IMG/VR virus record: IMGVR_UViG_3300021960_000224
Span: 1 to 36,668 of that record
From: a virus
Direction: 5' to 3' (one strand)
DNA: 36,668 nt
The notes under the pieces are model-generated. The model did not search any database, was not told where the DNA came from, and saw nothing but the letters and a program-made list of their open reading frames with translations. Position numbers and translations under genes: made by a program. The stretch's first letter is position 1, and each line of letters opens with the position of its first letter. Shown one piece after another: positions 265 to 36,668 of the stretch.

Positions 265-3248
265 TGAATCAAAAAATACAATTATATATAGAAAACGAAC
301 AAGTTGATGTATTTCAAGATGGTTCAATAAACATTGTAAGCAGTATAAAGGATTTTAGAGAACCTGATAAAATATTTACTGATTTCTCTAGGAACTTTAA
401 TTTACCAGCTACATCTAGGAATAATAAATTATTTAAACATTATTATAATTATGATCTTGTTGGAAACAACTTTGACGCTAGATCATCTAAAGAAGCTAGA
501 ATTGAAATTAATGATAGACCTTACAAAGATGGGTATATAACATTAGAAAGTGTAAAACTTCAATTTAATAAACCAAGTTCTTATAGGGTTACTTTTTATG
601 GTAATCTTAAATTATTAAAAGAATTATTTAATAATGTAAAACTAACAAACTTAGAGTGGTTAGAAAGATTTAATATTAATGATAGTCATTTTGATTCTAG
701 TGGAGATTCATTTTATCATTATCTATCACAAAGCAAAGATTTTACATCTAGTGATGAGTTTACTATTGGAACTGGTGATGGTGTTACAAAGAAATTTAGA
801 TTATTATATTCGCCATACCCACAACTAGATACAGACTTTAAGTTGTATAACGCTGGATCTGAAGTTGCAACAAACAACTTTTCGTATTCATATACTTCAG
901 GTGATGTTATATTCAATACTGCTCCAAATGCTGGTAACGCAATAACAACTAAATTATTTTACCCACAACCAATAATTGTTCCTTTAATATCTAGTTCGGA
1001 AAGATTGTATTATACAAATAACGCAAACTTTTATGGAGTTTTGAGTGATGGTAATTTATATTACAATTCAGGTAACTATCCACTAAACAACCAAGTAAAT
1101 GGATTAAAATTTGAACACCTTAAACCTGGTGTTAGAGTTCATTTAATTTTACGTGCAATAGAACAAAAGATAAATCGTGATCCTAATGTTCAAAGTAAAA
1201 TAGAATTCTCTAACGATTTTTTAAATGCATCTAATAAAGATTATTATAATCTATATATGTGGCTTAATAAAGATAAAAAAGCCAACACATTATTCGATCA
1301 AGGAAGTAAAGAAATAAAAGTAAATACATTTAACATTTCTAGTAACACAATAGCTTTATATCAAGATGCATCAAGTCAAGGTTTATTAGAAATATCATCA
1401 GTTAACTCATCAGGACTTATAGGAACTCAATCTGGTGACACAATTATTGTAAGAAACTCAACAGCTGAAAATATAGATTATATAGAATGTAGATTTAGGG
1501 TTTTTACAAGTGATACATCAAATGCATATGGTTTAAGAATTTATAGAAATGGATCAGTAATTAGAACATTTGAACCATCTACTGGTAATGGTACATCTAA
1601 AGAATATGATTTTTATGTAGAACAAGATGGAGATTATCAATTTGAATTGTTTTCTCCAACAGGTTTAATTATTAATAATGGTTTTGAAGCTAAGTTTGTT
1701 ATAGCTGGAGATAGAGATGACGAAGATTATAATGATGTAGTTATTCCTGGTGGTTTTTTAACATTTAATAAAGGTAAATTTAGTATATCTAAAAATATGC
1801 CTGATATGAATGTTATTGAGTTTTTATCTGGTTTATTTAAAATGTTTAATCTAGTTTGTTTTGTAGAAAACGCAGAAGATAGTAGTTATAGTACAACGCA
1901 AAGTAATATGAAAAGAATTAGAATAATGACATATGATTCATATTATGCTTCATCTAGTTCTGAATTAGATATAACAAGTAAAGTAGATACTTCTGAAAGT
2001 AGTGTGGAAAGATTAATGCCATATTCACAAATAGAATTTAAATATGCAGATACTGAATCGGTTCTCGCTGAACAACATAGATCTGACTTTGGTATAGAAT
2101 GGGGTGGTGAAAGTTGGACTTATAGTGATTCAAGAGGTGAGCAAAAGTATGAAATAATTCCACCTTTTTCACACTTAAAATATGAAAGGTTATTATTGAC
2201 TGATGGTACAACACCATCTACATTGCAAGTAGGATTTAGTGTAAAGAGAAGTAATGCAGAAAGAAATGTAGCTGTTGGTGGTGGTAGTACAGCTGGTTTT
2301 AAATCGTTCCAAGAAGAAAAATATAGTCCACACTTTAGTAAAAAGCCATTATTATTTTATGCACATCGAGAAACTAGTGGAACACAAATTCCTTATGTAT
2401 ATACTGATGCTTCTAATAATGCAATATTTTATGGTGCTTTAACAACTTATTTTGTACCCTTAAATTCAGTTGATATTAACACGTCTCAATCAAATCATTT
2501 TGGAGAAGAAGTAGATGAATATAGAGTTTACAATGCTAATGAACAAAGTAACGTAAACAATTTATTTAATATATATTACAAAAACTATATTGAACATTTG
2601 TTTGATGTAAAGTCAAGATTAATAAAAGTAAATGCAAATTTAACTAATGCTTTTATATCTAAATATTCGTTAGCTGATAAAATTAGAATACTAGATAAAA
2701 CTTTTAGTATAAATAAAATTGACATTGATTTACAAAATGGTGAATCAAAATTAGAGTTACAAAGATACTATGACGTAGTTTCTTTTGATTGTTTAGCATT
2801 GAACTTTAATGCAAGAGTAGAAGTGACATCAGGTGGTAATGCTTATGTTTTTGATAATAAATATGGTATATACCAAATGGGTTTAGGTACTTATATTATG
2901 AATGACGTTCCATCAGCTCACCCTATTGCATTTCACAACTTTGGTAAAGAAAGTAGAATTACTTATACAGGTACAGCTAGTGGTGGTACAAAAACTGGTT
3001 TAGATGGTAATACATATACATATTATTATGGTAATATTACTATTACTGTTGCTGGTGATTTTGGTACAATGAGTTACGAGTGTTATAATCACGGGTATAT
3101 GGGGGGTGAGAATAATTTAGTGTATAATGCAGATTGTTTAACTTCTACAACGCCACCAACACCACCAGTAGTAGGAAACTTAACAGTAGATGCAACTGAT
3201 ATTTATGTAGATAGTGGAATAATAACGTCAGATCAAACAGATGAATAA
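264..3248 (+). CDS. Large tail/baseplate protein with C-terminal cupredoxin-like domain
   Basis: This 994-residue protein lies between the other large tail genes and the tape measure gene, so it is probably a baseplate hub or receptor-side tail protein. The N-terminus ('SIKDFREPDKIFTDFSRNF', about residues 27-45) is typical of a Bacteroidota phage tail family. A middle section (~470-545) carries an acidic 'DRDDEDYNDV' loop of calcium-binding appearance. The last ~120 residues look like a cupredoxin fold: H886 in 'SAHPIAF', a second histidine at 891, then C940-x2-H943-x2-M946, the ligand order and spacing of type 1 copper sites such as amicyanin. Copper binding is an inference; the residues are visible. 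The start ATG overlaps the preceding TAA. The exact tail role is not certain. Confidence 0.75.
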   Translation: MNQKIQLYIENEQVDVFQDGSINIVSSIKDFREPDKIFTDFSRNFNLPATSRNNKLFKHYYNYDLVGNNFDARSSKEARIEINDRPYKDGYITLESVKLQFNKPSSYRVTFYGNLKLLKELFNNVKLTNLEWLERFNINDSHFDSSGDSFYHYLSQSKDFTSSDEFTIGTGDGVTKKFRLLYSPYPQLDTDFKLYNAGSEVATNNFSYSYTSGDVIFNTAPNAGNAITTKLFYPQPIIVPLISSSERLYYTNNANFYGVLSDGNLYYNSGNYPLNNQVNGLKFEHLKPGVRVHLILRAIEQKINRDPNVQSKIEFSNDFLNASNKDYYNLYMWLNKDKKANTLFDQGSKEIKVNTFNISSNTIALYQDASSQGLLEISSVNSSGLIGTQSGDTIIVRNSTAENIDYIECRFRVFTSDTSNAYGLRIYRNGSVIRTFEPSTGNGTSKEYDFYVEQDGDYQFELFSPTGLIINNGFEAKFVIAGDRDDEDYNDVVIPGGFLTFNKGKFSISKNMPDMNVIEFLSGLFKMFNLVCFVENAEDSSYSTTQSNMKRIRIMTYDSYYASSSSELDITSKVDTSESSVERLMPYSQIEFKYADTESVLAEQHRSDFGIEWGGESWTYSDSRGEQKYEIIPPFSHLKYERLLLTDGTTPSTLQVGFSVKRSNAERNVAVGGGSTAGFKSFQEEKYSPHFSKKPLLFYAHRETSGTQIPYVYTDASNNAIFYGALTTYFVPLNSVDINTSQSNHFGEEVDEYRVYNANEQSNVNNLFNIYYKNYIEHLFDVKSRLIKVNANLTNAFISKYSLADKIRILDKTFSINKIDIDLQNGESKLELQRYYDVVSFDCLALNFNARVEVTSGGNAYVFDNKYGIYQMGLGTYIMNDVPSAHPIAFHNFGKESRITYTGTASGGTKTGLDGNTYTYYYGNITITVAGDFGTMSYECYNHGYMGGENNLVYNADCLTSTTPPTPPVVGNLTVDATDIYVDSGIITSDQTDE

Positions 3249-3397
3249 TGATTAAGAATTTAATAGAGTTATTAAAATTAGATAATCACTATGGAGTTAG
3301 TGAAAGAGTAGATATTGCTAAAGGTAAATATAAAGCTAAAAGTAATCTAAAAGAATTGAATGAACATTTTAAGAGAGTAATCAATGGCAAAAGGTAA
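3248..3397 (+). CDS. Small hypothetical protein, 49 aa
   Basis: The ATG overlaps the previous stop (TAATG) and the frame ends 14 bases inside the tape measure gene. The product (MIKNLIELLKLDN...) is basic, probably helical, and has no membrane segment. The tight overlaps at both ends favour a real, translationally coupled gene. Function is unknown. Its place directly before the tape measure would suit a small tail chaperone, but nothing in its sequence proves that. Confidence 0.55.
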   Translation: MIKNLIELLKLDNHYGVSERVDIAKGKYKAKSNLKELNEHFKRVINGKR

Positions 3398-5487: not shown

Positions 5488-6660
5488 ATGGAAAACGTAA
5501 TAGAATTAATTATCGATGAAAATAATGAGATTAGTGGAATTGAAGCTATATCAATAGTAGAGAATCCTGCTATTGAAGAAGATTTTATTGCACTTAAAGA
5601 ACATAAAGAAGTCAGATTAGCAGAAGTAGATAAAGAGAAAAGAATTCTTATGGGGCCTGCGTTAATTCCAAACAAAAAGATATTTAGAAAAGGTGCAAGT
5701 GATGATGAAGATTATTATATCTATTTTAGCGAAGATACTGTTCGTAAAGCATCAGAGTTATTCTTTATAAAAAGCAAACAAAATAATTCAACATATGAAC
5801 ATCAAATTGATCTGAATGGTATGAGTGTTGTAGAATCTTGGATTGTTGATGATCCAACAAATGACAAATCTAATTCTTATGGATTTGATCTACCCAAAGG
5901 AACTTGGATTGTTTCTATGAAAGTTTTAAATGATGATATATGGAAAAAAGTAAAAAATGAGGAAGTTAAAGGTTTTTCAATAGAGGGTTTCTTTGCAGAT
6001 AAAATGGAAAGACCAAAAGAAAGTATTGAAGAAAAAGCGTGTGATAGTTGTCTAAGTGAATTAAATGCTCAATATGAATTATTAGAAGCATTAGAATCTT
6101 TAGAAGATAATGTTGAATTAGAAAGTTATGGTGGTTACCCCCAATCAGCTAGAAACAATGCTAAAAGAGCAATTGATCTGAATAAAAAAGTAAACAATAA
6201 ATGTGCAACTCAAGTTGGTAAAGTGAGAGCGCAACAATTAGCTAGAGGGGAAAAGTTTACATTGTCTACTCTTAAACGTATATACTCTTATCTTTCAAGA
6301 GCAAGTGCATATTATGACGCTGGTAATAATGAAGCGTGTGGAACAATATCATATTTATTATGGGGTGGTAAATCAATGTTAAATTGGACTACTTCTAAAT
6401 TAAAAGGTCTTGATGCAATTGAAGCATCATCTACTATTATAGATGGTAGAGCTGGTTACTCAACGCAAGAAGAAGCAGAGAAAGCAGCAGAAGATATGGG
6501 TTGTTCAGGGTATCATACACACGAATACGAGGGAGATGTTTGGTATATGCCTTGTGAGGAACACAATCTCGATGATGATCCTTGTCAAGAGGGGTATGAG
6601 CAAATAGGAATGAAACAAAAGAATGGTAGACCAGTTCCTAATTGTGTTCCAAAAAAATAA
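5488..6660 (+). CDS. XkdF-like prohead (head maturation) protease
   Basis: Residues ~48-170 match the phage XkdF-like putative serine protease family: 'MGPALIPNKKIFRK', 'STYEHQ' (probable catalytic His region), 'VVESWIVDDPTNDKS', 'LPKGTWIVSMKV' and 'EEVKGFSIEGFF'. Such proteases cleave scaffold and capsid precursors during head maturation. A second conserved region (~215-310, 'NNAKRAIDLNKKVNNKCATQ' to 'CGTISYLLWGGKS') is a domain I associate with Bacteroidota phage head proteins. The C-terminus has His/Cys clusters ('HTHEYEGDVWYMPCEEH') and ends in 'GMKQKNGRPVPNCVPKK', a recurrent phage tail-end motif. At 390 residues it is longer than a protease alone. It heads the capsid gene group, consistent with the role. 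Confidence 0.8.
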   Translation: MENVIELIIDENNEISGIEAISIVENPAIEEDFIALKEHKEVRLAEVDKEKRILMGPALIPNKKIFRKGASDDEDYYIYFSEDTVRKASELFFIKSKQNNSTYEHQIDLNGMSVVESWIVDDPTNDKSNSYGFDLPKGTWIVSMKVLNDDIWKKVKNEEVKGFSIEGFFADKMERPKESIEEKACDSCLSELNAQYELLEALESLEDNVELESYGGYPQSARNNAKRAIDLNKKVNNKCATQVGKVRAQQLARGEKFTLSTLKRIYSYLSRASAYYDAGNNEACGTISYLLWGGKSMLNWTTSKLKGLDAIEASSTIIDGRAGYSTQEEAEKAAEDMGCSGYHTHEYEGDVWYMPCEEHNLDDDPCQEGYEQIGMKQKNGRPVPNCVPKK

Positions 6661-7857: not shown

Positions 7858-8781
7858 ATGGCGACAACAAATAATTTAACAACTACTTATTCAGGTGAAT
7901 TCGCAGGGAAATACATTTCCGCAGCGTTATTATCTGGTAAAACTTTGGCTGAGGGTAATATAACTATTAAGCCAAATATCAAATTTAAAGAAGTAATGAA
8001 AAAAGTTGCAACAGATGACATCGTAAAAGATGCTACTTGTGACTTTGACGCAACTTCGACACTAACTCTAACTGAGAGAATATTAACTCCAGAAGAGTTT
8101 CAAGTTAACTTACAATTATGTAAGAAAGACTTTAGAGCAGATTGGGAAGCTGTACAAATGGGATATTCTGCATTTGACAATCTTCCACCATCTTTTTCTC
8201 AATTCTTAATTGCTCACGTAGCAGATAAGGTAGCACAAAAAATGGAACAAAACATTTGGAATGGTACAAATGCTAATGCTGGTTCATTTGATGGATTCAA
8301 AACTACATTATTAGCTGATGCTGACGTAAATGACGTTGCTGCTGGTGCAGTAACTGCTGGAAACGTAATTACAGAACTTGGTAAGATTGCTGATGCAATT
8401 CCAAGCGCAGTATATGGATCTGAGGACTTGTTTGTTTATGTATCAAACAACATTTATAGAGCATATGTAAGAGCATTAGGTGGTTTTGCAACTAACGTAG
8501 GTGCTTCTGGTACTGACAATAAAGGTACTCAATGGTTCAATGGTGGTGCATTAACATTTGATGGTATCAATATGGTAATGGCTTCAGGGCTAGCAGACAA
8601 CACAGCTGTAGCTGCTGAAAAATCAAACTTATTCTTTGGAACTGGTCTATTAAACGATCAAAACGAAGTAAAAGTAATTGATATGGCAGATATTGATGGA
8701 AGTCAAAATGTAAGAGTAGTAATGAGATTCACTGCAGGTATTCAACACGCAATAGGATCTGACATCGTTCTTTACTCTTAA
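7858..8781 (+). CDS. Major capsid protein
   Basis: The 307-residue protein sits after protease, scaffold-like and decoration-like genes and is followed by a strong terminator, as expected for the most abundant product. The sequence has capsid features: an N-terminal flexible segment ('TTTYSGEFAGKYISAALLSG'), a helical region with 'VADKVAQKMEQNIWNG' (~122-137) and beta-rich C-terminal parts ('VRVVMRFTAGIQHAIGSDIV'). It resembles HK97-fold capsid proteins of Bacteroidota phages in length and pattern. It lacks an obvious long cleavable N-terminal delta domain, so the separate scaffold may serve that purpose. Confidence 0.85.
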   Translation: MATTNNLTTTYSGEFAGKYISAALLSGKTLAEGNITIKPNIKFKEVMKKVATDDIVKDATCDFDATSTLTLTERILTPEEFQVNLQLCKKDFRADWEAVQMGYSAFDNLPPSFSQFLIAHVADKVAQKMEQNIWNGTNANAGSFDGFKTTLLADADVNDVAAGAVTAGNVITELGKIADAIPSAVYGSEDLFVYVSNNIYRAYVRALGGFATNVGASGTDNKGTQWFNGGALTFDGINMVMASGLADNTAVAAEKSNLFFGTGLLNDQNEVKVIDMADIDGSQNVRVVMRFTAGIQHAIGSDIVLYS

Positions 8782-9876: not shown

Positions 9877-11612
9877 GTAAAAATTTAAAGATAATAAATT
9901 TAGGTGGGTATGAAATACCTAAAGTAATTGAAAACAAAAGACATAATTGGGTAGAGTATGGTGAAAACAACCAATACTTTGATGAGATTATAGAAAGATA
10001 TTTAGGTAGTGCAACTAACTCTAGATGTGTAAATGGTATTGTAGATATGATTTATGGTAGAGGATTAGATGCAACTGATTCTCAAGAAAAAGCAGAGATG
10101 TTTGGTAAGATGCAATCTATATTACAACCAGACCAATTAAAAAGAATAGTAAATGATTTGAAACTTTTAGGTCAAGCGTCTATTCAAGTTACTTATGACA
10201 AAAAGAAAAGTCAGATCAATGGAATATATCATTTTCCTACTGAAACATTAAGAGCTGAGAAAGCAAAAGATGGTAAAATTAAAGGTTATTATTATCACCC
10301 AAAATGGAGTGAAATAAAACCAAACGATAAACCAAAAAGAATTCCAGCATTTGGGTTTGGTAATAAAAAAGAATTAATTGAAATATATTGTGTAAAACCA
10401 TATAGACCTGGTTTCTATTATTATTCTCCTGTAGATTATCAAGGTTGTTTACAATATTGTAATCTTGAGGAAGAAGTATCAAATTATCATATTCAAAATA
10501 TTAAAAATGGATTACAGCTATCTATGTTATTGAATTTTAACAATGGTGTCCCTGGTGATGAAGCACAAGAAATTATAGAAAGAAAGATATATGACAAGTT
10601 TAGTGGATCATCAAATGCAGGTAGATTTATATTAGCATTTAACGAAGATGCAGAAACACAAGCATCAGTAGAACCAATAAACCTACCAGACGCACACGCA
10701 CAATATGATTTCTTAGCAAAGGAATCGAGGGAAAAGATAATGATTGGTCACGGTGTTGTTTCTCCTATATTATTAGGTATAAAAGATAATACTGGTTTTG
10801 GTAATAATGCAGAAGAATTAAGAACAGCTTCTATATTAATGGACAACATCGTTATTAGACCATTTCAAGCACTTTTAATAGACTCTCTTAAGTCTATTTT
10901 AGCTTTTAATGAAATATATCTAAACTTATATTTTGTAACGTTACAACCTATTGAATTTACTGAGTTAGATAATATAGCAACTAAGATAAAAAGAGAGGAA
11001 GAAACTGGAGAAAAGTTGTCTAGTGAGGTTAAGTTAGATCTGAATGATGATGAAGCAGATGACTTAATGAGTCAGCTTGAAACATTAGGAGAGAAAATAG
11101 ATGAAAGTCAATGGGAGTTAGTTCATCAAGAAGTAGTTGAAGATTCTGATAAAGAATTTGATTTAGACACTTTTTCTAGTCAAGCTAGTAAATCCGATGC
11201 TAATCCTAATAAAGAATCATATCAAGATAACGCAACTTTTAAAGTTAGATATTCATACACACCAATAAAAAAATCTATAAATAGTAGAAAGTTTTGTATT
11301 AGTATGGAAAATTTAGCTGAACAAAATATTGTGTTTAGAAAAGAAGATATTAGTATGATGTCTTTTAGAGGACTTAATAAAGAATTAGGTCATAAAGGTC
11401 AAAGATATAGTTTATTTAAATATAAAGGGGGTGTTAATTGCCAACACAAATTTATGTTAAACGTATACAAAAAGAAAGTTAAACAAGGAGATAAAGTTTC
11501 AATTGGTAAAGCAAAAGAAGATGGATTTAAAGAACCAACAAATCCTAAAGAATATGCAATAGCACCAAAAGATATGCCGAATCAAGGTCATCACCCAAAT
11601 TATAATAAATAA
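9873..11612 (+). CDS. Portal protein with extra C-terminal domain
   Basis: Residues ~1-360 look like a phage portal: 'YGENNQYFDEIIERYLGSA', 'GIVDMIYGRGLD', 'LKLLGQASIQVTYDKK', 'IKGYYYHP' and 'IMIGHGVVSPILLGIKDNTG'. The portal forms the dodecameric ring through which DNA is packaged and ejected. Residues ~440-579 form a separate domain: 'FKVRYSYTPIKKSINSRKFC', 'FRKEDISMMSF' and 'YKGGVNCQHKF'. I associate this domain with the end of head proteins in other Bacteroidota phages, and here it is attached to the portal. The acidic linker (~375-440) separates the two. At 579 residues the protein is longer than a portal core. It lies after the capsid genes and far from the terminase, contrary to the common order. 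Confidence 0.75.
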   Translation: MSKNLKIINLGGYEIPKVIENKRHNWVEYGENNQYFDEIIERYLGSATNSRCVNGIVDMIYGRGLDATDSQEKAEMFGKMQSILQPDQLKRIVNDLKLLGQASIQVTYDKKKSQINGIYHFPTETLRAEKAKDGKIKGYYYHPKWSEIKPNDKPKRIPAFGFGNKKELIEIYCVKPYRPGFYYYSPVDYQGCLQYCNLEEEVSNYHIQNIKNGLQLSMLLNFNNGVPGDEAQEIIERKIYDKFSGSSNAGRFILAFNEDAETQASVEPINLPDAHAQYDFLAKESREKIMIGHGVVSPILLGIKDNTGFGNNAEELRTASILMDNIVIRPFQALLIDSLKSILAFNEIYLNLYFVTLQPIEFTELDNIATKIKREEETGEKLSSEVKLDLNDDEADDLMSQLETLGEKIDESQWELVHQEVVEDSDKEFDLDTFSSQASKSDANPNKESYQDNATFKVRYSYTPIKKSINSRKFCISMENLAEQNIVFRKEDISMMSFRGLNKELGHKGQRYSLFKYKGGVNCQHKFMLNVYKKKVKQGDKVSIGKAKEDGFKEPTNPKEYAIAPKDMPNQGHHPNYNK

Positions 11613-12109
11613 TGAAAGCACTATTTATAACATTAAAAGAGTTAAAAAGGAAGTCTATAATTGATGGAAATGTAGATCAAGATAAGTTAATACAATTTGT
11701 AGAAGTAGCACAAGACACTTATATACAAACACAACTTGGAACAAAATTATATGATAGATTACAATTTGAGGTAATTAATAACTCATTAACTACTGATAAT
11801 ACAACTTTAGTTGATGATTATTTAAAACCTATGTTAGTTTGGTATTCTCAAGCAACTCTAATTCCATACATAGCTTTTCAAATTTCTAATGGTGGAATCT
11901 ATAAACATAGATCTGATAATTCAGATAGTGCTTCATTAAAAGAAATTGATAGTCTAGCTGATGATGCAAAACAAAAAGCAGAGTTTTATACTCAACGATT
12001 TTTAGGGTATATGAATGAAAATAGTGAAAAATACCCTTTATATACAGCTAATCAAGATGGTGGTATGTACCCTGAGAGAGATCAAAACTTAACAGGTTGG
12101 GTGTTATAA
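11612..12109 (+). CDS. Head-tail connector-like protein
   Basis: The 165-residue helical protein starts with ATG overlapping the portal stop (TAATG). Motifs 'YIQTQLGTKLYDRL' and 'DDYLKPMLVWYSQATLIPYI' match a Bacteroidota phage family with the profile of head-completion or adaptor proteins, which join the portal ring to the tail. The position directly after the portal agrees. The C-terminal 'YPERDQNLTGWVL' also looks conserved. Confidence 0.6.
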   Translation: MKALFITLKELKRKSIIDGNVDQDKLIQFVEVAQDTYIQTQLGTKLYDRLQFEVINNSLTTDNTTLVDDYLKPMLVWYSQATLIPYIAFQISNGGIYKHRSDNSDSASLKEIDSLADDAKQKAEFYTQRFLGYMNENSEKYPLYTANQDGGMYPERDQNLTGWVL

Positions 12110-17580: not shown

Positions 17581-17653
17581 TTCCCCTAGAGAAAAAGAAA
17601 TTTCAATATTTACCTGAACCAACAATATCTCTATTGAAGTTTGTAACTTTTTT

Positions 17654-17683: not shown

Positions 17684-17690
17684 TATAAAA

Positions 17691-23803: not shown

Positions 23804-24572
23804 ATTATTAGACAATTCCGAATGGAACAAAGATGAGTTAAAATTAAAAATGTATGATGATGAATTTTATTATGGTTATCTAGGTAAAAACGCATTATCA
23901 TCAAGTAGTGCGAAACCATTATATAAATCACCACAAGCATATAGGAAATTCACTAGAGAAAATATAAGTGGAAACAAAGCAATTAGAGAGGGTAAGTTGT
24001 TTCATACTTTGTTATTAGAAGAAGAAAAAATTCAACATAATTACTTATTTGTTGACTCAAGTACTAGAACAACAAAGAAGTTTAAAGATGCTGAACTAGA
24101 TAACCCACACTTAGAAGTTATGACTAATAGAGAGTTAGAGTCTATGAGTTATTTAATTAGCACATTTGAATCTAACATAGAAGCTAGTGAGTTCCTAAGA
24201 AAAGGTGTAGCTGAGGAACCAGGGATTGATACTCTATTTGGTTTCCCCTTTCGTGCTAAAGCAGATTACTTACGATCTGATATGATAATAGATATTAAGA
24301 CAACTCAAACTTTAGATGGTTGGGGTTACAAAGCAAAAAAAGTATATCATTATGATATGCAGGCGTACATATATACAAAGATTTTCCAAGTACAAAACTT
24401 TGTTTTCTTAGTTATAGATAAGAGTACAGGAGAGATAAAATCATTTCCTGTAACGCAAGAAACTTTAGATGGGGCAGAGAAGAAAGTAGAAAAAGCGTGT
24501 GAAATTTATAAAGATTATATGTATGACAAAACAAAGAGCATCAATCAATACCTTAGAACAGAATATCTATAA
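23796..24572 (+). CDS. RecE/Cas4-like PD-(D/E)xK exonuclease
   Basis: The 258-residue protein matches the phage exonuclease family with a PDDEXK (DUF3799-like) domain: 'LSSSSAKPLYKSPQAYRKF' (~35-53), 'IREGKLFHTLLLEEE' (~62-76, catalytic His region), 'FRAKADYLR' and 'IIDIKTTQ' (the D...DxK core, ~152-170), and 'YHYDMQAYIYTKIF' (~186-199, QxxxY motif). Such 5'-3' exonucleases resect double-strand ends so that an annealing protein can act. Erf, at 18775, is the evident partner, although five kilobases away in the same transcription direction. Confidence 0.8.
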   Translation: MIKLLDNSEWNKDELKLKMYDDEFYYGYLGKNALSSSSAKPLYKSPQAYRKFTRENISGNKAIREGKLFHTLLLEEEKIQHNYLFVDSSTRTTKKFKDAELDNPHLEVMTNRELESMSYLISTFESNIEASEFLRKGVAEEPGIDTLFGFPFRAKADYLRSDMIIDIKTTQTLDGWGYKAKKVYHYDMQAYIYTKIFQVQNFVFLVIDKSTGEIKSFPVTQETLDGAEKKVEKACEIYKDYMYDKTKSINQYLRTEYL

Positions 24573-24816: not shown

Positions 24817-25204
24817 GGATCTGAAGATTAACATTAAGAAAAATAGTAGAATAAGAAAGTATGTTTATGGTAGAGCAATTTACTTTAAACTATGTAAAGA
24901 GTTTACACACGCTTCATTAGCAGAGATAGGTGAAAGTGTTAATAGAGAACACGCCACAGTTATACACGGGTTAGAAGTATTCAATATGATTGCCCTATAT
25001 AATGATACTATTATGTCTAGCTACAATAGAATAAGAAACGCTTTACTTCAAGAGGGTAATCAAGCACTTAAAAGATATAGCGAGGTTCACTATTGGAGAA
25101 TTAAGTATGAGGATTTACTTAAAGACCACGATGAACTTCTCCGCGCACATTTAGATTTAGAAAGAAAAGTAGATAACCACGAAATTTATGGGGAGAAAAC
25201 CTAA
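24764..25204 (+). CDS. DnaA domain IV-like DNA-binding protein
   Basis: The 146-residue protein has the DnaA C-terminal DNA-binding signature: 'RKYVYGRAIYFKLCKEFTHA' (~31-50), then 'SLAEIGESVNREHATVIHGL' (~51-70), matching the helix-turn-helix and 'DHTTVLHA' DnaA motif. There is no AAA+ domain, so it is a stand-alone origin-binding domain. It could bind the phage origin and recruit host machinery, or act as a transcription regulator. The C-terminal ~50 residues are a coiled coil ('RIKYEDLLKDHDELLRAHLD'). One near-DnaA-box (TTATACACG) lies inside the gene at 24960. Confidence 0.7.
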   Translation: MSTNTNLTLSQIKILVSKDLKINIKKNSRIRKYVYGRAIYFKLCKEFTHASLAEIGESVNREHATVIHGLEVFNMIALYNDTIMSSYNRIRNALLQEGNQALKRYSEVHYWRIKYEDLLKDHDELLRAHLDLERKVDNHEIYGEKT

Positions 25205-25577: not shown

Positions 25578-26763
25578 CCAAAAATATAATGCACTTGGAA
25601 ATGACTCAAGGTATTTTGTAATAACTGGTGGTAGAGGTAGTGGTAAATCATTTGCAATAACTACATTTTTAGCGTTCCTAACGTTTGAACAAGGACATAA
25701 AATACTATTTACTAGGTATACAATGATTAGTGCGTCTAACTCAATCATTCCAGAGTTCCTTGAGAAGTTACAACTATATGACATAATGCATCACTTTAGA
25801 ATAACTAAAGATGAAATCTTAAACATAAGTACTGGTAGTTCAATAATCTTCAAAGGGATTAGAACAAGTGCTGGTAATCAAACTGCAGCACTTAAATCCA
25901 TAAATGGAATTACTACTTGGGTTCTTGATGAAGCTGAGGAGATGACTAAGGAAGAGGACTTCGATAAGATAGACCAATCTGTCAGATCAAAAAATAAACC
26001 TAACAGGGTTATATTAATATTAAACCCTGCTACTAAAGAGCATTGGATATACCAAAGATTCTTTGCTGGTAAGGGTGTAAACACAAGTGTAAATTTATCT
26101 AACGACAATGTTACATATATTCACACAACTTTCAAAGACAATGAAGAAAATCTTTCTGAATCATTTTTATTACAACTAGAAGATATAAGACGTAGACGAC
26201 CTGATAGATACAATCATCAAATACTTGGGGGTTGGCTAGATAAAGCTGAGGGTGTTATCTTTACTAATTGGAAAGTCGGTGAATTTAATGAGGAAGTAGA
26301 ATCTATTTATGGTCAAGACTTTGGCTTCTCGATTGATCCGACTGTACTTATAAAAGTAGGGATAAGTAAAGCATTAAAGAAGATTTGGATAAAGACAATG
26401 TATTGTAAACCTGGTATGTCGACACAAGAGATAGGGGAAGCAAATCGTAGATATGCAAACGATGAGCTGATTATATGTGATAGTGCTGAACCTAGACTAA
26501 TCAATGAACTTAAAGGGTATTGTAATATAAAACCAACTATAAAAAGGAAAGGTTCAATATTAACGGGTATAGCTTTATTACAAGATTACGATCTGATTGT
26601 AGATTCAAGTAGTATTGAATTGATAAAGGAATTAAATAATTATGTATGGCACGAAAGAAATACTAAGCCAATACAAAAGTATGACCACCACATAGATTCA
26701 TTGCGTTATTGCACACAATACTTTCTAGCTAACGCAAACAAAGGTGTGTACGTTATTCGCTAA
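25558..26763 (+). CDS. terL: Terminase large subunit
   Basis: The 401-residue packaging motor has Walker A 'GGRGSGKS' (24-31), Walker B 'TTWVLDEAEEM' (~115-125) with catalytic Glu, coupling motif 'LILNPATKEHW', and the C-terminal RNase H-like nuclease with 'GQDFGFSIDPT' (~248-258), 'IICDSAEP' and 'KYDHHIDSLRY' (~379-389). The family is Terminase_3/PBSX-like, often associated with headful or cohesive-end packaging. The length is normal. It lies about 14 kb from the portal and next to the accessory region. Confidence 0.92.
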   Translation: MKKPSLNQKYNALGNDSRYFVITGGRGSGKSFAITTFLAFLTFEQGHKILFTRYTMISASNSIIPEFLEKLQLYDIMHHFRITKDEILNISTGSSIIFKGIRTSAGNQTAALKSINGITTWVLDEAEEMTKEEDFDKIDQSVRSKNKPNRVILILNPATKEHWIYQRFFAGKGVNTSVNLSNDNVTYIHTTFKDNEENLSESFLLQLEDIRRRRPDRYNHQILGGWLDKAEGVIFTNWKVGEFNEEVESIYGQDFGFSIDPTVLIKVGISKALKKIWIKTMYCKPGMSTQEIGEANRRYANDELIICDSAEPRLINELKGYCNIKPTIKRKGSILTGIALLQDYDLIVDSSSIELIKELNNYVWHERNTKPIQKYDHHIDSLRYCTQYFLANANKGVYVIR

Positions 26764-26811: not shown

Positions 26812-26932
26812 CAAACCACCAAAGTAATAGATAAGTCCAAGCAAAGACCATCAAACTCCAAATTATCGATATGATTATATATTTTGTTCTCTTCATTGAT
26901 CTGATAAATATATATATTTTATTGTATATAAG

Positions 26933-26986: not shown

Positions 26987-27613
26987 ATGAGAATTTATAT
27001 ATTACATACTACGAGTAATCTTCAAGATTACAACGACCACCAAGTATTTACATCTTGGAAAGAAGTCGTAACTAAATTTCAAGAACTAGTTAAAGAAGCT
27101 AGAGCTGAAGCACACGAAATCTATACTGACGAGTATGCTGAGTTCTATTTCGATGGATCTGAGGGTAGCGAAAAGATTTATATTAGTGAACACAATGTAT
27201 ACGATAACGAGAGATATGCTAGACAATGTAGCATTACTGATGAGGGAATGAATGAGGGTTGGATAGATGAAGATACAGGAGTATACTTTAAGTATAAAAA
27301 AGACGCCATAAAGTACGTTAAGAAACTAATGACAAATTTATATGATGGTATGGGAGATAACCCAAAAGTAAAAGAAGCTGCAATCTTCGATGTTAATAAG
27401 TATAAAAAAGATGATGACATTCTTGATATAGGATATGAACACTTTAATACTTATTGGACTTCTTGGGAATGTGAAACTGAACTACAATATAAGTTAGTCG
27501 ATGGAGAATTAATAGAAGATTATGATTTTCAAGAGGAAGCAACAAGAAAGTTAAGAGACAAGTTGGAACACGAAAGAAAACAAAAATTAAGAGACTTAGG
27601 ACAAATATATTAA
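26987..27613 (+). CDS. Hypothetical acidic protein, 208 aa (accessory operon)
   Basis: This is the first gene after the shared promoter element. It is highly charged and acidic, with many Asp/Glu/Tyr/Lys ('EIYTDEYAEFYFDGSEGSEK' ~45-64; 'KRGQ'-free C-terminal coiled helix 'LRDKLEHERKQKLRDL' ~188-203). No recognised family, membrane segment or catalytic motif. A DNA-mimic or host-takeover protein would suit such composition, but that is only a suggestion. Confidence 0.65.
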   Translation: MRIYILHTTSNLQDYNDHQVFTSWKEVVTKFQELVKEARAEAHEIYTDEYAEFYFDGSEGSEKIYISEHNVYDNERYARQCSITDEGMNEGWIDEDTGVYFKYKKDAIKYVKKLMTNLYDGMGDNPKVKEAAIFDVNKYKKDDDILDIGYEHFNTYWTSWECETELQYKLVDGELIEDYDFQEEATRKLRDKLEHERKQKLRDLGQIY

Positions 27614-27790: not shown

Positions 27791-28255
27791 ATGGGATATA
27801 ACACACAATTTATTGGACAATTTAGGTTGAGTAAAAACCTAGATGATGTATTGGTTGATAGGTTTAACGAACTACAAAATAAAAGACACGATCTGAATTC
27901 GTACCCAAGTAGATATAATCATTGGCATATCAAAAGACAATATGGTAATCAATACCTAGCTTGGAATGGTGGCGAAAAGTTTAGACATTATTTTGCTTGG
28001 CTTGACTTAGTATGCAAACAATATTTAGAAATGTGGGGAGTTACTTTAAGTGGCTACGTTACATATGTTGGAGAAGATAAATCTGACTATGGAGTTATTG
28101 AATGTGTAGAGAAGATGAATCTACAAAATGGGATTCGTTATACTAAAATGTTAGTGTACAAATTATCTGAACCAAAATGGGATAGAGAAACAATTGAGCA
28201 ATCTATCAAAGAAGAACAAGGAGAGTATAACGAAATAAGAAGATGGATAAGATGA
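27791..28255 (+). CDS. Conserved phage hypothetical 'MGYNTxF' protein, 154 aa
   Basis: The N-terminus 'MGYNTQFIGQFRLSKNL' and the 'RYNHWHIKRQYGNQYLAWNG' region (~41-60) resemble a family of phage proteins that begin 'MGYNT/DF.G.F', widespread in tailed phages and without known function. The protein is Trp/Tyr-rich, soluble and mixed alpha/beta. It overlaps the following gene (ATGA). Confidence 0.65.
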   Translation: MGYNTQFIGQFRLSKNLDDVLVDRFNELQNKRHDLNSYPSRYNHWHIKRQYGNQYLAWNGGEKFRHYFAWLDLVCKQYLEMWGVTLSGYVTYVGEDKSDYGVIECVEKMNLQNGIRYTKMLVYKLSEPKWDRETIEQSIKEEQGEYNEIRRWIR

Positions 28256-28754: not shown

Positions 28755-28918
28755 TGGAAAATAAAATAATAATAATAGTAAATGTAATCAATCTAATGAT
28801 GGCTATTGTATTTCTTACTTTAGCAATTGTTGATCTGATACGACAAGGTAACTCGTATGGATATTTCTTTATGATATATCTAGCTACTCTTTTAATAACG
28901 AAACTAATAAATAAATAA
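28754..28918 (+). CDS. Small two-pass membrane protein, 54 aa
   Basis: Two hydrophobic helices are visible: 'IIIIVNVINLMMAIVFLTLA' (~5-24) and 'YGYFFMIYLATLLITKLI' (~35-52), separated by a short 'DLIRQGNS' loop. TAATG overlaps occur at both ends. It may be a superinfection-exclusion or membrane-stress protein; there is no family evidence. Confidence 0.6.
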   Translation: MENKIIIIVNVINLMMAIVFLTLAIVDLIRQGNSYGYFFMIYLATLLITKLINK

Positions 28919-29089: not shown

Positions 29090-29127
29090 GTGGTTAAATC
29101 AGATCAAGAAAATAAAGAGCATAAAAA

Positions 29128-29631: not shown

Positions 29632-30161
29632 AGCGTTTTTTTTAAATATTTATATTGCTCAATGAGTGATTCCATAGTATGAAGAAAGGAGTTAATATTT
29701 TTATGTTCTCTTTCTTCGTGAATGGCTTGATAATAAATTCGTTGGTTTTTTCTTTTCTCTTCGTAGTATAATTCTTCGAATCGATTAGCCCAAAATTTAT
29801 AATGTTTTATTTGTCTTTTTGGTGTACGCCTATAAAGTGAATTTCCTTCCTCTTTACATTCTTTTGTTAAGTGATATTTACCACGTTTAACAATAACATT
29901 TCCGATTGATTTCCAATGAACAATGTTAGTACCATACCAACCAATAACCTTTAATTGTTTTGAAGTCATAGTTGAATCGACTTTGAAAAGCCATTTAACA
30001 AACGCTTCGAATGAAACATTTGTGTTATTACTTTTGTTTATTGTTGGTAGTTGCTTGGCATCAGATCCAATAACACCACAATATTTACAAAAGATTCTTA
30101 ATTGTTTGCTTGTTGGTTTATATTCATCTATAAACCTACGTATTAAAATATGTTTTTTCAT
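29628..30161 (-). CDS. Hypothetical basic protein with internal repeat, 177 aa (minus operon, first gene)
   Basis: This is the first gene of the only minus-strand operon. It is strongly basic with many Lys/Tyr/His. 'TSKQLRIFCKYCG' (17-29) and 'TSKQLKVIGWYGT' (66-78) look like an internal duplication, possibly two related helical DNA- or RNA-binding modules. A long helix with 'RFEELYYEEKRKNQRIYYQA' follows (~127-146). No family is recognised. Orientation, own promoter-like element and terminator mark it as a cassette of separate regulation, such as an immunity, anti-defence or lysogeny-type gene, but none of these is shown. Confidence 0.65.
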   Translation of the reverse strand: MKKHILIRRFIDEYKPTSKQLRIFCKYCGVIGSDAKQLPTINKSNNTNVSFEAFVKWLFKVDSTMTSKQLKVIGWYGTNIVHWKSIGNVIVKRGKYHLTKECKEEGNSLYRRTPKRQIKHYKFWANRFEELYYEEKRKNQRIYYQAIHEEREHKNINSFLHTMESLIEQYKYLKKTL

Positions 30162-30568: not shown

Positions 30569-30697
30569 TAACTAAATTAATATGAACTCAGAAATGATCT
30601 GATTGAATATAATTTTGGTGAATCTATATATTTATCAAACAAAGATAAGATAAACTATTTATTATTACAAAATATTCTTTAATATAACTACTTTTTC

Positions 30698-31526: not shown

Positions 31527-31984
31527 GACAAGTATATACAATACTAGATAAATTAAAAACAATATTAAGAGCAAATGGAATAACTAAATATGTTACGTTT
31601 GGTGATCTACTACAAATTGATCTGAATAAAACAACTATATACCCATTAGCACATATAGTGTTTGGAGATGTAACATTTAATGATAGAATAATGAACGCAT
31701 CAATACAAGTCTTATGTTTAGATATAGTAGATGATAAGAATACAAAAGAAGATGAAGATGAATTCTTTGGAAATGATAATCTACAAGATGTACTTAATAC
31801 ACAATTGCAAGTAGTCAATCTATTACAACAAGAAATGAGAAGAGGAGATACATTTTCAGAGAACTTCCAAATAACTACATCTGTAATCGCCAATCCAATA
31901 ATCGACTCATATGAGAATGAACTTGCAGGGTGGGGTGTAACAATAGAAATAGAAGTGCCTACTAATGAATTATCTCTTTGCTAA
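31523..31984 (+). CDS. Tail completion/terminator-like protein, 153 aa
   Basis: The ATG overlaps the stop of the -1 frame chaperone extension. The protein has 'YVTFGDLLQIDLNKTTIYPL' (~23-42), 'VTFNDRIMNASIQVLCLDI' (~49-67) and 'WGVTIEIEVPTNELSLC' at the end, an alpha/beta layout of the tail terminator or minor tail class found next to tail chaperone genes. The last residues overlap the next start (TAATG). Family recall is moderate; a head-tail completion role is the alternative. Confidence 0.6.
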   Translation: MRQVYTILDKLKTILRANGITKYVTFGDLLQIDLNKTTIYPLAHIVFGDVTFNDRIMNASIQVLCLDIVDDKNTKEDEDEFFGNDNLQDVLNTQLQVVNLLQQEMRRGDTFSENFQITTSVIANPIIDSYENELAGWGVTIEIEVPTNELSLC

Positions 31985-32490: not shown

Positions 32491-35400
32491 AGTAAATACT
32501 AGAAGTCCATACTACGTTGTAGCTTCAGGATCTGAGGGATCAACAGATCAAACTAGCGAAGAGGGAAGAGAAATATATTTATTAAAAATAGTACAAGTAG
32601 TAAATAACGTTGAGAAAAATAGTCCAGGTGAGGGAACTTCTAATGCTAACATTACACTTCGTGCTATACCTGTAAACTTTACATCTAATGGAACGTATAC
32701 GTGGACTGGTGGAAACGCTGCTGCTGCAGGAACAACACCTGACATAACATTTAAAGAAGTATTATCTGGTGCAAGTCAAGAATTTAGTTATGGTTGTAGT
32801 ACGTTAGATGCAGATGGAAACACAATTACTGCTTTACCTTTTAAAGTATCTTGGGCTACAGCGACTCAATATACTGCAACGCTTACTATTGCGAATTCAA
32901 TAAAACCATCAATATCATCAGATGGTTATAGTGGTACTGTTACGAAGTCATCAAGTATACAAGCACAAGAAGTAGTTGCTTTAGAAAAATTAAACCCTGA
33001 GGTCTTTGAAGTAAAAGGTCGTCAAGGTGATAGTTATAGTTTTGTTATTGCTTTAACACTATCAACTAATTATAATGCGACATCAGCTTTAGCAATATCA
33101 ACTGCTAGTTTTAGTGGAACATTTGGTAGTGCCAATGTAGCATTAGCATCTTCGTTAACAGGTACACTTGCTTTAAAAGAAACATTTATATTAACACCAA
33201 GTGTTACAAGTGCAACTGAGGGTGATGCATTTACAATAGACCTTACAACAACAAACTTAGTAGACAACACAGCTGTACCATTTACAATAACAGGAGTATC
33301 TGCAAGTGATCTAGTAAGAAATGGACTAACAGGATCATTTCAGATATTTGAAAATCAAGCAAGTGAAACATTTGAAGCAATTAAAGATACTTTAAGTGAA
33401 CAACCTTATGAAACTTTTACATTGACATTAAACGATATTAGTCCAACAATATCTACGTCTGTAAAAATATATGATGAAGTTGCTCAAGTAACAGCGACAT
33501 CAATTGATGTTTCTCCTATTGGAAGAACAAGTGATGAATTAGCTTGTTTAGATAGTGCGTCAGAAACAGCTTACTTTACTTTACTAGATGGTCAAACTGC
33601 TTTAGGAAATGGTGTTATTCTATTTTCAGATCAATCACTACAAACTCCTTATGCAAGTGATGGAAAATATTATAAAATAGGTACTAATCACAATGGAATA
33701 ATTGGAGAAGTAGCTGATGGAAGAATTAGTGGTTATGTTGAATGTACTACAAGTACAACAACTACTATAATTGAAGAGTCTGAAACAAAACCAAATCAAT
33801 CTATGATTTCATCAACATCTGTATCTGTACCTGGTTCTCGTGGAATCGATGCTTGTGAGCAAAATGCAGACACAGAAATATATTATGATGGTTCTATAAC
33901 TCAAGGAACTTTATTATATACACAAAAAGATGCAGCAGATAACTTGTCAAGTGTATTTGGTGGGGTTGACAAATGGCATAAATTAACATTATATGACACA
34001 AGTGACAATCCACAAGATCATTATGCATTAATAACTAGTTATCCTCCAGGTTATGTTTCAAGAATATTTGTTTGTGGAACTGCATTCATACCTGAAACAA
34101 CAATTACATTAACACCTAGAGTTACTATTAATATGTCAACTAGTGATGGTAATAATCAAGGATTTGCTTTTGTTTCACAAAGAACTGAACTAACAGCAGT
34201 TGTACAAAACATAACAAACGCATCTTATCAATGGGAAAAAGGTAGTTCATCAGGTGCAAGTAATATGACTAATATTAGTGGTGCAACATCATCAAATTTA
34301 GTTATAAATGAAGTTGGTGGTGGTGGAGAGACACAAACAAGTGCTGGTGTTGTTTTTTATAATTGTAAAGTTATTGGAACTGGTGTTACTACTACAAGAG
34401 CTGATGTATTTAAAAGTATAACTTGGCAAACAAGACCTAGTTTTGCATTAAGGTTTGCAAGTACAGGTGCTGCAAGTAATACAGCTTGTACAGGATCAAA
34501 CGTTACTATTTATGGCGACAGAAATGCTGTAACAGCTTTTTGTGTTGGTACTCAATTTTATGCTAACGCAAATGGAACAGGTGCTTTGTCTCCAGGTAGT
34601 TATTCCGATAGTACAAGTGGAACAAATAATAATTTTAGATATATAGAAGCAAGTGGAATACCAGGTCCTTGTATAAATTATGGTTGTGCAGGTGCGCCGG
34701 TAAGTCAACCTACAACTAACATACAAAAAGTTGCTGTTAAGAGATGTGAGAATCAAACAAATGCTGGTAGAATAGAATATATAATATTTAATAATTTTGA
34801 ATATACTTTAGGTAACATAATAAGTTTAAAAGATTTTGGTCAAACAGGTGGTGAGGGTTGTTATGAGATTATAGAAGTATATGCTGATAATTACACTTTA
34901 CCTACACCAAACTTTACTTTAGAAACAACAGACTTTGTAAGATCACAACCATTTGGTAAATGTGAAACTTGTGTTGGAGAAATAGAGGTTGAAGAAGAAG
35001 TAATAATTGATCTGAATAAATATTATGGTGCGTATAGATTGTGTGGAAGTACAGGTGGTGCTTTAACATATATAGTTTCTGATTCAGCTTTACCAAATGT
35101 ATTAAGGGTTGGAGCAGATACTACAAAGTGTAGACACACAGTTTATACTTTACATAATAACGAGGGAGATGTTAAAGCATATAGTCCTGACGCTTTAATT
35201 CTTGAAGATTTGTTTTGGATTGAGTTTAATGAGTGTACTACTTGTATTGGTGGTTCTTCTGCTCCTACTATAACTGGTCTACCTTACAAAAGAAAATATA
35301 AACAATGTGATGATGCTTCTAAAACAATAGTATTTGGTCATAGTGAAAATTTAGCTGCAACTGAATGGGCTATAAGATACCCAAGTGTTGTATATAATGG

Positions 35401-35827
35401 TATATGTTACGAAGATTCTACAACATCAACTGATACAACAACTATTAATATTGATGATCTGACTAACTTTAGAGATTGTGATGCTTGTGATGCTTTTGTT
35501 AATCCACCACCAGCACCAGTAGTAGAAAGACCATCTAACATTAAAATTATGAGAATATCATCAAGTTCATCTTTAAATACAACTGCTGCTTGTAATACTT
35601 TATTTACTTATGATGTTGATGTTTATTATGTTGGTACGTTTGGCGATAGCACAGTTTTGTATAGCGACACAGCATTAAGTACAATATATGCACCAACAAG
35701 TGAAACTAACTTTAGAATAAATGAAAATAGAAATTCATTTAGAATAGGTTATAGTGGAAACCCATCAGGAGTTAGACCAGGAGTAGTATATAATTTTGGT
35801 TCTTGTGCTGGTGTAGACATCTATTAA
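32477..35827 (+). CDS. Very large beta-rich tail/fibre protein, 1116 aa
   Basis: At 1116 residues this is the largest gene. It is Thr/Ser/Asn/Gly-rich and beta-structured throughout, with Ig-like modules (~200-300 'TPSVTSATEGDAFTIDLTTT'). At least three Cys-containing repeats follow ('CLDSASETAYFTL...', 'CEQNADTEIYYDG', 'CNTLFTYDVDVYYVG'), each opening a ~90-130-residue segment that ends 'IGEVADGRISGYVEC' or similar. This is typical of tail spike or distal-tail surface proteins. It lies between tail completion genes and the split tail gene. Receptor binding is likely but no enzymatic site is visible. Confidence 0.7.
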   Translation: MAVNKVNTRSPYYVVASGSEGSTDQTSEEGREIYLLKIVQVVNNVEKNSPGEGTSNANITLRAIPVNFTSNGTYTWTGGNAAAAGTTPDITFKEVLSGASQEFSYGCSTLDADGNTITALPFKVSWATATQYTATLTIANSIKPSISSDGYSGTVTKSSSIQAQEVVALEKLNPEVFEVKGRQGDSYSFVIALTLSTNYNATSALAISTASFSGTFGSANVALASSLTGTLALKETFILTPSVTSATEGDAFTIDLTTTNLVDNTAVPFTITGVSASDLVRNGLTGSFQIFENQASETFEAIKDTLSEQPYETFTLTLNDISPTISTSVKIYDEVAQVTATSIDVSPIGRTSDELACLDSASETAYFTLLDGQTALGNGVILFSDQSLQTPYASDGKYYKIGTNHNGIIGEVADGRISGYVECTTSTTTTIIEESETKPNQSMISSTSVSVPGSRGIDACEQNADTEIYYDGSITQGTLLYTQKDAADNLSSVFGGVDKWHKLTLYDTSDNPQDHYALITSYPPGYVSRIFVCGTAFIPETTITLTPRVTINMSTSDGNNQGFAFVSQRTELTAVVQNITNASYQWEKGSSSGASNMTNISGATSSNLVINEVGGGGETQTSAGVVFYNCKVIGTGVTTTRADVFKSITWQTRPSFALRFASTGAASNTACTGSNVTIYGDRNAVTAFCVGTQFYANANGTGALSPGSYSDSTSGTNNNFRYIEASGIPGPCINYGCAGAPVSQPTTNIQKVAVKRCENQTNAGRIEYIIFNNFEYTLGNIISLKDFGQTGGEGCYEIIEVYADNYTLPTPNFTLETTDFVRSQPFGKCETCVGEIEVEEEVIIDLNKYYGAYRLCGSTGGALTYIVSDSALPNVLRVGADTTKCRHTVYTLHNNEGDVKAYSPDALILEDLFWIEFNECTTCIGGSSAPTITGLPYKRKYKQCDDASKTIVFGHSENLAATEWAIRYPSVVYNGICYEDSTTSTDTTTINIDDLTNFRDCDACDAFVNPPPAPVVERPSNIKIMRISSSSSLNTTAACNTLFTYDVDVYYVGTFGDSTVLYSDTALSTIYAPTSETNFRINENRNSFRIGYSGNPSGVRPGVVYNFGSCAGVDIY

Positions 35828-35838: not shown

Positions 35839-35866
35839 TTTTTTAGGTTATATTAAAAAAGATAAA

Positions 35867-36668
35867 ATGGCTACATTAAATAGTTCTACGTTAAAATTGT
35901 ATTGTTGGACAGGAAGTTTTAATTCTCAACCAACCACAGCGCAATACACAATAACAAAATCAAACCCTGATTCTAACAATACAGTAAGGTTTGAATTATC
36001 GGAACTTATTCAAGATTATATAAATGTAACATTCAATGATGATTATAATACAATAAACACAACTTGTTGGTGGTATTATGTAAAAACTAATCAATATTCT
36101 GATTTATCAACACCTACTTCGACAACTCAATATGGTCTTGCAACAAAAGGGTATACATATTTTGAAGATGGATTAAACTCTATTCTTTCAACGTCTAAAT
36201 TGTTTAGTAATAATTATTTATATATACCAAAAAACATAAAATATAATATTCCAGTTTATAAAGGATTAAATGGAGTAACAAATGTAATATTTTATACTAA
36301 AGATAGTACAGGTGTGGAATCAGTAGCAGATAGTAAATCTATTGCACCTATAACAAATGTTCCTGGTATTGAAACTTCTGACGACTTTATTACTTATGTA
36401 TCAAGTACTGTTCAAGCTACTAAAATAGAAATAGTGTCATCAAACAATTCTATTTCAACATATGACACACAAACTAATAGTGCGATTGAAACAATATATC
36501 CTATTTTTACTTGTGATACTAAATACACAAATCATAAAGTATCATTTATTAATAAGTTTGGTGTAATACAAGACATTTATTTTAATAAGAAAAGACAAGA
36601 TAGATTAAGCGTTAAAAAAGATAATTTTGTTACTAGTACGATCAGATCAACAACAAGTTCTGCTACTT
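35867..36668 (+). CDS. Tail protein, N-terminal part (runs off right edge)
   Basis: ATG 35867 opens a frame of 267 full codons to the window end with no stop. The product starts 'MATLNSSTLKLYCWTGSF', contains 'RFELSELIQDYINVTFNDDY' (~41-60) and is rich in Thr/Ser/Asn. Its C-terminal end is the open frame at 1-264. Direct circular joining is off by one base in frame, so one or two bases appear lost or added at the junction. Role in the tail is by position. Confidence 0.7.
   Translation, partial: MATLNSSTLKLYCWTGSFNSQPTTAQYTITKSNPDSNNTVRFELSELIQDYINVTFNDDYNTINTTCWWYYVKTNQYSDLSTPTSTTQYGLATKGYTYFEDGLNSILSTSKLFSNNYLYIPKNIKYNIPVYKGLNGVTNVIFYTKDSTGVESVADSKSIAPITNVPGIETSDDFITYVSSTVQATKIEIVSSNNSISTYDTQTNSAIETIYPIFTCDTKYTNHKVSFINKFGVIQDIYFNKKRQDRLSVKKDNFVTSTIRSTTSSAT

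Follow-up and report, generated by a model that had tools for sequence, protein, structure and literature searches.

Why would a tailed phage carry one asymmetric seven-nucleotide word about once per kilobase, and what might read it? The question is raised by the viral record IMGVR_UViG_3300021960_000224, the whole of which (36,668 bases) forms the window analysed here, and by the word GATCTGA, counted throughout on both strands, i.e. as GATCTGA when forward and as TCAGATC when reverse. The window contains 39 copies, 25 forward and 14 reverse, approximately ten times the number expected by chance. As detailed below, the word is selected, and its sites are spaced and replaced locally with an indifference to orientation that holds as far as the tests reach.

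Over-representation and selection of GATCTGA

The first-pass annotation of this DNA had described the word as strongly over-represented genome-wide, and this observation is confirmed: all 25 forward and 14 reverse coordinates given there are exact (Table 1), and Markov models of orders 0 to 4 predict only 3.8, 3.8, 4.2, 3.7 and 4.9 copies, respectively, on both strands. Under orders 2 and 3, GATCTGA displays the largest excess of any multi-copy 7-mer. A model of order 4 or 5 approaching 39 copies had been named as grounds for abandoning the claim; the order 4 value is far from it, and order 5 does yield 23.5, although this figure is not an independent null because GATCTG, which is part of the word in 39 of its 42 copies, itself enters such a model. 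As had been stated, an A follows every GATCTG on the forward strand (25/25), but this is not so on the other (14/17). The form TTGATCTGA was recounted, on either strand, at 17 of the 39 sites (7 + 10), as had been reported.

Codon use does not account for the excess, in agreement with the earlier annotation. Forward coding sequence contains 33 copies, whereas 300 rounds of synonymous-codon shuffling leave 3.7 ± 1.7, with a maximum of 9. The leucine codon CTG represents 6 of the 722 Leu codons that do not follow Asp; in Asp-Leu pairs followed by A it is used (as GAT CTG) in 12 of 27 cases, and in those not followed by A in 0 of 34. The sites occupy both usable forward codon phases (the third being empty because the word would there create an in-frame stop) and all three reverse phases, while five copies fall outside called genes (26898, 29099 and 30596, as previously noted, plus 28832 and 36642) and 34 within them.

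Retention of the word by selection, which had also been suggested, is further borne out by relatives of the phage, in which words with at least eight aligned copies were ranked by conservation. G002 (86% identical at the nucleotide level) retains 32 of 39 sites, as opposed to 41% of other 7-mers, placing GATCTGA first of 1,634 words; in G011 the corresponding values are 24 of 31 sites, 42% and first of 1,289 words, and in G001 (93% identity) 30 of 35 sites are kept (rank 13 of 1,467). Direct selection of GATCTGA, rather than a codon artefact, is thus strongly supported, and the word appears to be near-exact, with little degeneracy.

Spacing, orientation and replacement of sites

The smallest gap between any two sites in the window is 258 bp, and the coefficient of variation of the gaps is 0.57 versus 0.96 for random placement (P = 0.0001 in 20,000 simulations and 0.0005 in 4,000), making this spacing the most regular among 91 window words with 30–50 copies. 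Regular spacing is also observed in G011 (P = 0.0001), G003 (0.0006), G002 (0.003) and G001 (0.017), many sites being common to these genomes. Forward-reverse pairs less than 250 bp apart are absent where 4.8 are expected (P = 0.016), and neither orientation reaches significant regularity by itself (P = 0.29 and 0.12). A switch of orientation along the genome had been proposed; the five reverse-only copies between 18.7 and 24.3 kb are indeed present, but the overall order is random (18 runs versus 18.9 expected, P = 0.44).

Comparison of the window with G011 identified seven lost and seven gained sites, and for five of the lost sites a gained one lies no more than 250 bp away (at 7, 108, 126, 207 and 210 bp) versus 0.82 expected, a number reached in none of 5,000 permutations; four of the five replacements are inverted. 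By replacement ratio GATCTGA is first of 615 words with none higher, AGTTCCA being close (4/5). Since spacing acts across orientations and replacements are mostly inverted, selection seems to be for local coverage and indifferent to orientation, and the earlier description of the word as polar could not be upheld. In G015 (76% identity), the density is the highest seen, yet of 12 aligned window sites only 3 are retained, indicating that number is maintained while position changes.

Table 1. GATCTGA sites of the window and genes considered as candidate readers of the word.
Feature	Position	Strand	Remarks
GATCTGA site	856..862	+	sequence match; kept in G002
GATCTGA site	2080..2086	+	kept in G002, lost in G001
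GATCTGA site	3228..3234	-	kept in G002
GATCTGA site	5809..5815	+	G011 instead: one 7 bp away, opposite orientation
GATCTGA site	6175..6181	+	kept in G002
GATCTGA site	8417..8423	+	kept in G002
GATCTGA site	8756..8762	+	kept in G002
GATCTGA site	10211..10217	-	kept in G002
GATCTGA site	11037..11043	+	G002, G011 instead: one 108 bp away, opposite orientation
GATCTGA site	11910..11916	+	kept in G002
GATCTGA site	13044..13050	-	lost in G002, G011, G003
GATCTGA site	13330..13336	+	kept in G002
GATCTGA site	15632..15638	+	kept in G002
GATCTGA site	16495..16501	+	kept in G002
GATCTGA site	17409..17415	+	G002, G011 instead: one 210 bp away, opposite orientation
GATCTGA site	17716..17722	-	kept in G002
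GATCTGA site	18685..18691	+	kept in G002
GATCTGA site	19720..19726	-	kept in G002
GATCTGA site	20892..20898	-	kept in G002
GATCTGA site	21548..21554	-	kept in G002
GATCTGA site	22833..22839	-	kept in G002, lost in G001
GATCTGA site	23496..23502	-	kept in G002
GATCTGA site	24274..24280	+	kept in G002
GATCTGA site	24818..24824	+	kept in G002
GATCTGA site	25982..25988	-	kept in G002
GATCTGA site	26590..26596	+	G011 instead: one 126 bp away, same orientation
GATCTGA site	26898..26904	+	outside called genes; GAGCTGA in G001
GATCTGA site	27156..27162	+	kept in G002
GATCTGA site	27890..27896	+	kept in G002
GATCTGA site	28832..28838	+	outside called genes; lost in G002
GATCTGA site	29099..29105	-	outside called genes; kept in G002
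GATCTGA site	30061..30067	-	kept in G002
GATCTGA site	30596..30602	+	outside called genes; kept in G002
GATCTGA site	31619..31625	+	kept in G002
GATCTGA site	32529..32535	+	kept in G002
GATCTGA site	33626..33632	-	kept in G002
GATCTGA site	35009..35015	+	lost in G001, G002, G011, G003
GATCTGA site	35456..35462	+	G011 instead: one 207 bp away, opposite orientation
GATCTGA site	36642..36648	-	outside called genes, 20 bp from record end; kept in G002
Mom-type DNA modification gene	17634..18368	+	PF25680, E=2.3e-41; candidate reader/writer of the word
Small C5-cytosine methyltransferase-like gene	23153..23803	+	in 4/6 word-rich relatives
130-amino acid gene, function unassigned	19684..20076	+	58-95% identical copies in 4/6 word-rich relatives
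DnaA C-terminal DNA-binding domain protein (PF08299), 146 amino acids	24764..25204	+	also in word-poor relatives

Relatives and candidate reader proteins

The record is classed as linear and lacks end repeats; because its two ends adjoin one another in G001, it probably represents a nearly full-length, permuted genome. Its G+C content is 30%, and its portal, that of a tailed phage, is 34% identical to the portal of the seawater Nonlabens phage P12024S; the source is probably a marine bacterial virus, with marine Flavobacteriia as likely hosts in view of this distant relationship to P12024S.

When the word was checked in related phages, as had been recommended, it was found to be enriched in six relatives of one clade, hereafter the word-rich relatives: G001 (34 copies in 37.5 kb), G002 (36 in 37.0 kb), G003 (22 in 24.6 kb; a fragment without the Mom region), G011 (32 in 30.6 kb), G015 (24 in 16.3 kb) and G012 (18 in 33.8 kb). 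The seven word-poor relatives comprise G004, G006, G007, G009 and G010, from which the word is absent, G005 (five copies in 28.4 kb) and P12024S (three copies); the portals of the first five are 66–77% identical. The absence from G004, G007, G009 and G010 is due to the (near) absence of GATC itself, which occurs 0, 0, 0 and 1 times, respectively, an explanation that does not apply to G006 (48 GATC). Additionally, 44 of 80 portal-relative loci (L002–L081) are devoid of GATC, of which approximately 89 copies would be expected in G004 (L089 and L090); such GATC-free relatives point to hosts that cut GATC.

Among the loci examined, clear enrichment is confined to the one phage clade. When 143 loci of 8 kb or longer, many of them overlapping or related, were screened, a dispersed and two-directional word of similar strength was found in no further clade, and a second screen of 55 G021-related loci of at least 6 kb revealed no further word of this kind. 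The nearest other cases are CTTTTGGA in one clostridial locus and GATCCTG in G021 (L254 and L255), where the latter has 25 copies in 32.9 kb versus 0.9–3.8 expected; GATCTGA itself has none in G021 versus 3.2–7.0 expected. GATCCTG can be regarded as a sister word only tentatively, as 11 of its 25 copies are Gly-Ser codons of one phase, and it is rare in G021 relatives except L296 (8 in 11.5 kb) and L302 (8 in 21.8 kb).

Other repeats were encountered among these loci. A direct repeat of approximately TTAAACGCARTAGG in L106 (G004) and L104 (G012), with 9-mers present 6–16 times and concentrated in a small number of 1-kb bins, possibly represents an origin or a repeat array, while TAAAAGACA, with 14 forward copies and one reverse copy over 16.6 kb of L196 (and also in L195), is a polar, possibly promoter-like repeat. 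Proximity of contig ends to GATCTGA (19 of 38 ends within 250 bp in 19 clade contigs, 10.0 expected) was not used, because among 177 words two others are ranked above it and a single variable region contains many of the ends.

Several genes of the window were considered as readers of the word. The Mom-type gene, whose start is probably the downstream ATG (17691) since in G012 a stop interrupts the stretch before it, is present in five of the six word-rich relatives (the sixth, G003, lacking the region) and in none of the seven word-poor ones. The C5-methyltransferase-like gene was rejected as determinant given that G012 is enriched without it (at half the density) and that, among 86 new loci carrying it, strong enrichment is found only in three clade loci; four others (L200, L212, L220 and L223) hold 3–5 copies of the word versus 0.6–1.4 expected. 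The 130-amino acid gene has a weak 27% match in G012 and none in the seven word-poor relatives, and its fold prediction (mean predicted local distance difference test score, pLDDT, of 48.9) was uninformative. The protein with the DnaA domain, its sole Pfam match, is encoded just upstream of the terminase genes and was rejected as reader on account of its occurrence in word-poor relatives. The window also encodes ERF, RusA and PDDEXK nuclease-like genes.

Possible functions and known systems

We infer that a protein reads the word, that the Mom-type module may be that protein and that the benefit may be protection. GATCTGA would then be recognised by a sequence-specific protein acting on double-stranded phage DNA whichever way the word points, with each site serving a few hundred base pairs around itself; the phage would be selected for about one site per kilobase, and a second nearby site would bring little gain. 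The most likely candidate would be the clade's Mom-type module, introducing a bulky adenine modification at TCAGATC about once per kilobase, by which a translocating host nuclease, or another defence, would be stopped or diverted. In its entirety this reading is put forward tentatively, as a possibility short of the probable; a modification or binding protein in general, with the Mom-type module as first suspect, is modestly favoured. With regard to the three roles suggested by the first-pass annotation, those of a binding site and of a target of the phage's own modification thus persist, the presence of Mom in the word clade and its absence from word-poor relatives being in line with the latter, whereas that of a Chi-like signal is weakened.

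A number of observations weigh against the modification reading. The strong replacement evidence comes largely from one comparison, that with G011: the same test gave P = 0.007 in G003 (several events being in common with G011), 0.045 in G002 and 0.15 in G001, and no replacement signal in the more divergent G015 and G012, in which regular spacing is likewise not significant (P = 0.15 and 0.69, respectively). The association of Mom with the word is suggestive, as it derives from one clade and in effect from one evolutionary event; G014 encodes a Mom that is 50% identical and is not enriched (4 copies, 3.6–5.4 expected), and among 47 Mom-bearing loci the nine enriched ones all belong to this clade, the other 38 being without enrichment. 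The sequence preference of Mom in phage Mu is compatible with the CAGAT contained in TCAGATC, but many words would match a pattern of this length, and no system based on sparse protective modification is known to us. Furthermore, the word may not be wholly exact: the single-letter variants GAGCTGA (11 copies, 1.5–2.0 expected) and GATCCGA (3 copies, 0.3–0.7 expected) are in excess, and third-letter T/G swaps occur in relatives at 26898 and 26464. As a functional variant GAGCTGA was set aside, its excess being read as probably codon-driven because nine of its 11 copies share one orientation and these copies are neither regularly spaced nor kept apart from GATCTGA (nearest distances of 8, 41 and 54 bp), though it may be a weak variant.

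Alternatively, the word could be the binding site of an architectural or regulatory protein, of phage or host, that folds, coats or silences the genome, an explanation that is rather unlikely though credible. Orientation-indifferent local coverage fits an architectural protein, plasmid KorB sites would be comparable, and the clade has uncharacterised small genes of its own (e.g. 19684–20076). Against this, no candidate protein was found, the DnaA-domain protein being shared with word-poor relatives, and the little degeneracy of the word is unusual for regulators. Dispersed asymmetric sites do have a precedent in the stoperators of Cluster A mycobacteriophages, as described in excerpts of PMC6550527 and PMC9283540. 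The stoperator type in particular is disfavoured here: orientation does not follow transcription (25 forward and 14 reverse sites, with 44 of 46 open reading frames taken as genes running forward), nor are the sites located in promoters or intergenic regions, 34 of 39 lying inside called genes in both orientations.

Classical Chi behaviour is likewise disfavoured. In this explanation, a host nuclease of the RecBCD/AddAB type would stop degrading and start recombining at GATCTGA, and phages that do not inhibit the nuclease would gain from many copies; we regard it as unlikely, and as a rival to be taken seriously pending identification of the host. Recognition of Chi is unidirectional, and the orientation-indifferent spacing, the random order of orientations and the inversion of four of five replacements constitute indirect evolutionary evidence against it; moreover, the phage has ERF, RusA and PDDEXK nuclease-like genes of its own, as several word-poor relatives do. 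An asymmetric, dispersed, positively selected word with positional turnover and such an excess in a phage nevertheless fits a Chi-like signal, and Chi provides an established reason for over-representing a short word: in the portion of Bobay et al. 2013 (PMC3784561) consulted, lambdoid phages have median observed/expected ratios of 3.12 without recombinases and of 2.50 with a recombinase but no RecBCD inhibitor.

Five surveys of Bacteroidota (395, 45, 87, 399 and 397 entries; 1,323, some repeated) revealed no genome at phage-like density, which speaks against Chi, although the true host may be unsampled and a host Chi needs only about two- to threefold enrichment. The highest density of TGATCTGA was approximately 0.17/kb in the 395 genomes (0.63/kb in the phage) and that of TTGATCTGA 0.058/kb in the 45, 87, 399 and 397 further entries (0.46/kb in the phage); the 397-entry family is probably Flavobacteriaceae, judging by G+C content and a GldC match. 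Stretches sampled from 11 denser genomes of the 395-genome survey (a twelfth, G193, with approximately 1 kb, being dropped) and five of the 397-entry survey have little or no excess over Markov orders 2–3, with some exceeding order 1, such as the G035 stretch (22 copies versus 7.5, 18.2 and 16.7 expected under orders 1, 2 and 3). An apparent replication polarity in several genomes, whose first ten listed places were all forward, was dismissed as an effect of forward-first listing: stretches around forward places in five genomes contain reverse copies (2 in G272 and 6 in G051), and their totals of 57 forward and 34 reverse copies owe the forward lean to the choice of place. Alignment of the portal against genome contigs gave no match that would point to a host through a prophage, and the eight loci followed for the methyltransferase yielded none. 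No Chi is named for Bacteroidota among the literature matches listed.

It is improbable that the word mimics a self mark, i.e. that a host system of the BREX, Dnd or Ssp kind places its mark at the word and spares DNA so marked, the phage gaining sites in order to be marked. Such a system would be consistent with the near-exactness and local coverage of the word, and the GATC-free state of 44 of 80 portal-relative loci implies that many related hosts probably discriminate on GATC; however, the density of the word in sampled Bacteroidota genomes is ordinary, and classical restriction and BREX favour the loss of sites rather than their gain. Lastly, an artefact of composition or codon use, for which only the circular order 5 expectation speaks, is refuted by synonymous shuffling and contradicted by conservation, spacing, replacement and the noncoding sites, leaving it a negligible likelihood.

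GATCTGA may thus, with some promise though still tentatively, be an undescribed type of phage genome element, namely a non-palindromic word set at regular intervals in either orientation, through which a modifying or binding protein covers the genome and whose lost sites are replaced nearby. Among the literature matches listed, GATCTGA appears as a word in only one unrelated paper, and no phage word of this kind is described. Selected short words are rare in phage genomes, and those of Chi and the stoperators exposed basic mechanisms. The window resembles phage Mu in carrying a Mom-family gene (PF25680) and in a word that contains a CAGAT like that of Mu Mom specificity, but differs in that Mom is linked to GATCTGA only by co-occurrence in one clade; to our knowledge, no over-represented, evenly spaced Mom target exists in Mu. 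With Chi in phages lacking a RecBCD inhibitor, as covered by the consulted portion of PMC3784561, it shares a short asymmetric word, selected over-representation and gene-independent placement; it differs in an observed/expected ratio of approximately 10 versus medians of 2.5–3.1, in spacing and replacement that ignore orientation, in the phage's own recombination genes and in that no host of matching density was found among the surveyed genomes. Cluster A stoperators, according to the excerpts of PMC6550527 and PMC9283540, are similarly asymmetric sites, more than 20 and up to about 30, spread over a phage genome with a consensus that differs between phage groups; they are 13 bp long, are oriented with transcription and occur in promoters and short intergenic regions, whereas GATCTGA has 7 bp and lies mostly in genes in both orientations. 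Sequence alone thus yields testable properties (a near-exact word, a spacing of approximately 1 kb, indifference to orientation and local replacement), and finding the reader protein would reveal either an orientation-free Chi-like signal in Bacteroidota or a new form of phage DNA protection or organisation. If the proposal is true, the word would belong to a system that protects or organises the whole genome and is selected for coverage, in contrast to Chi, which is read by direction, and to stoperators, which are tied to transcription.

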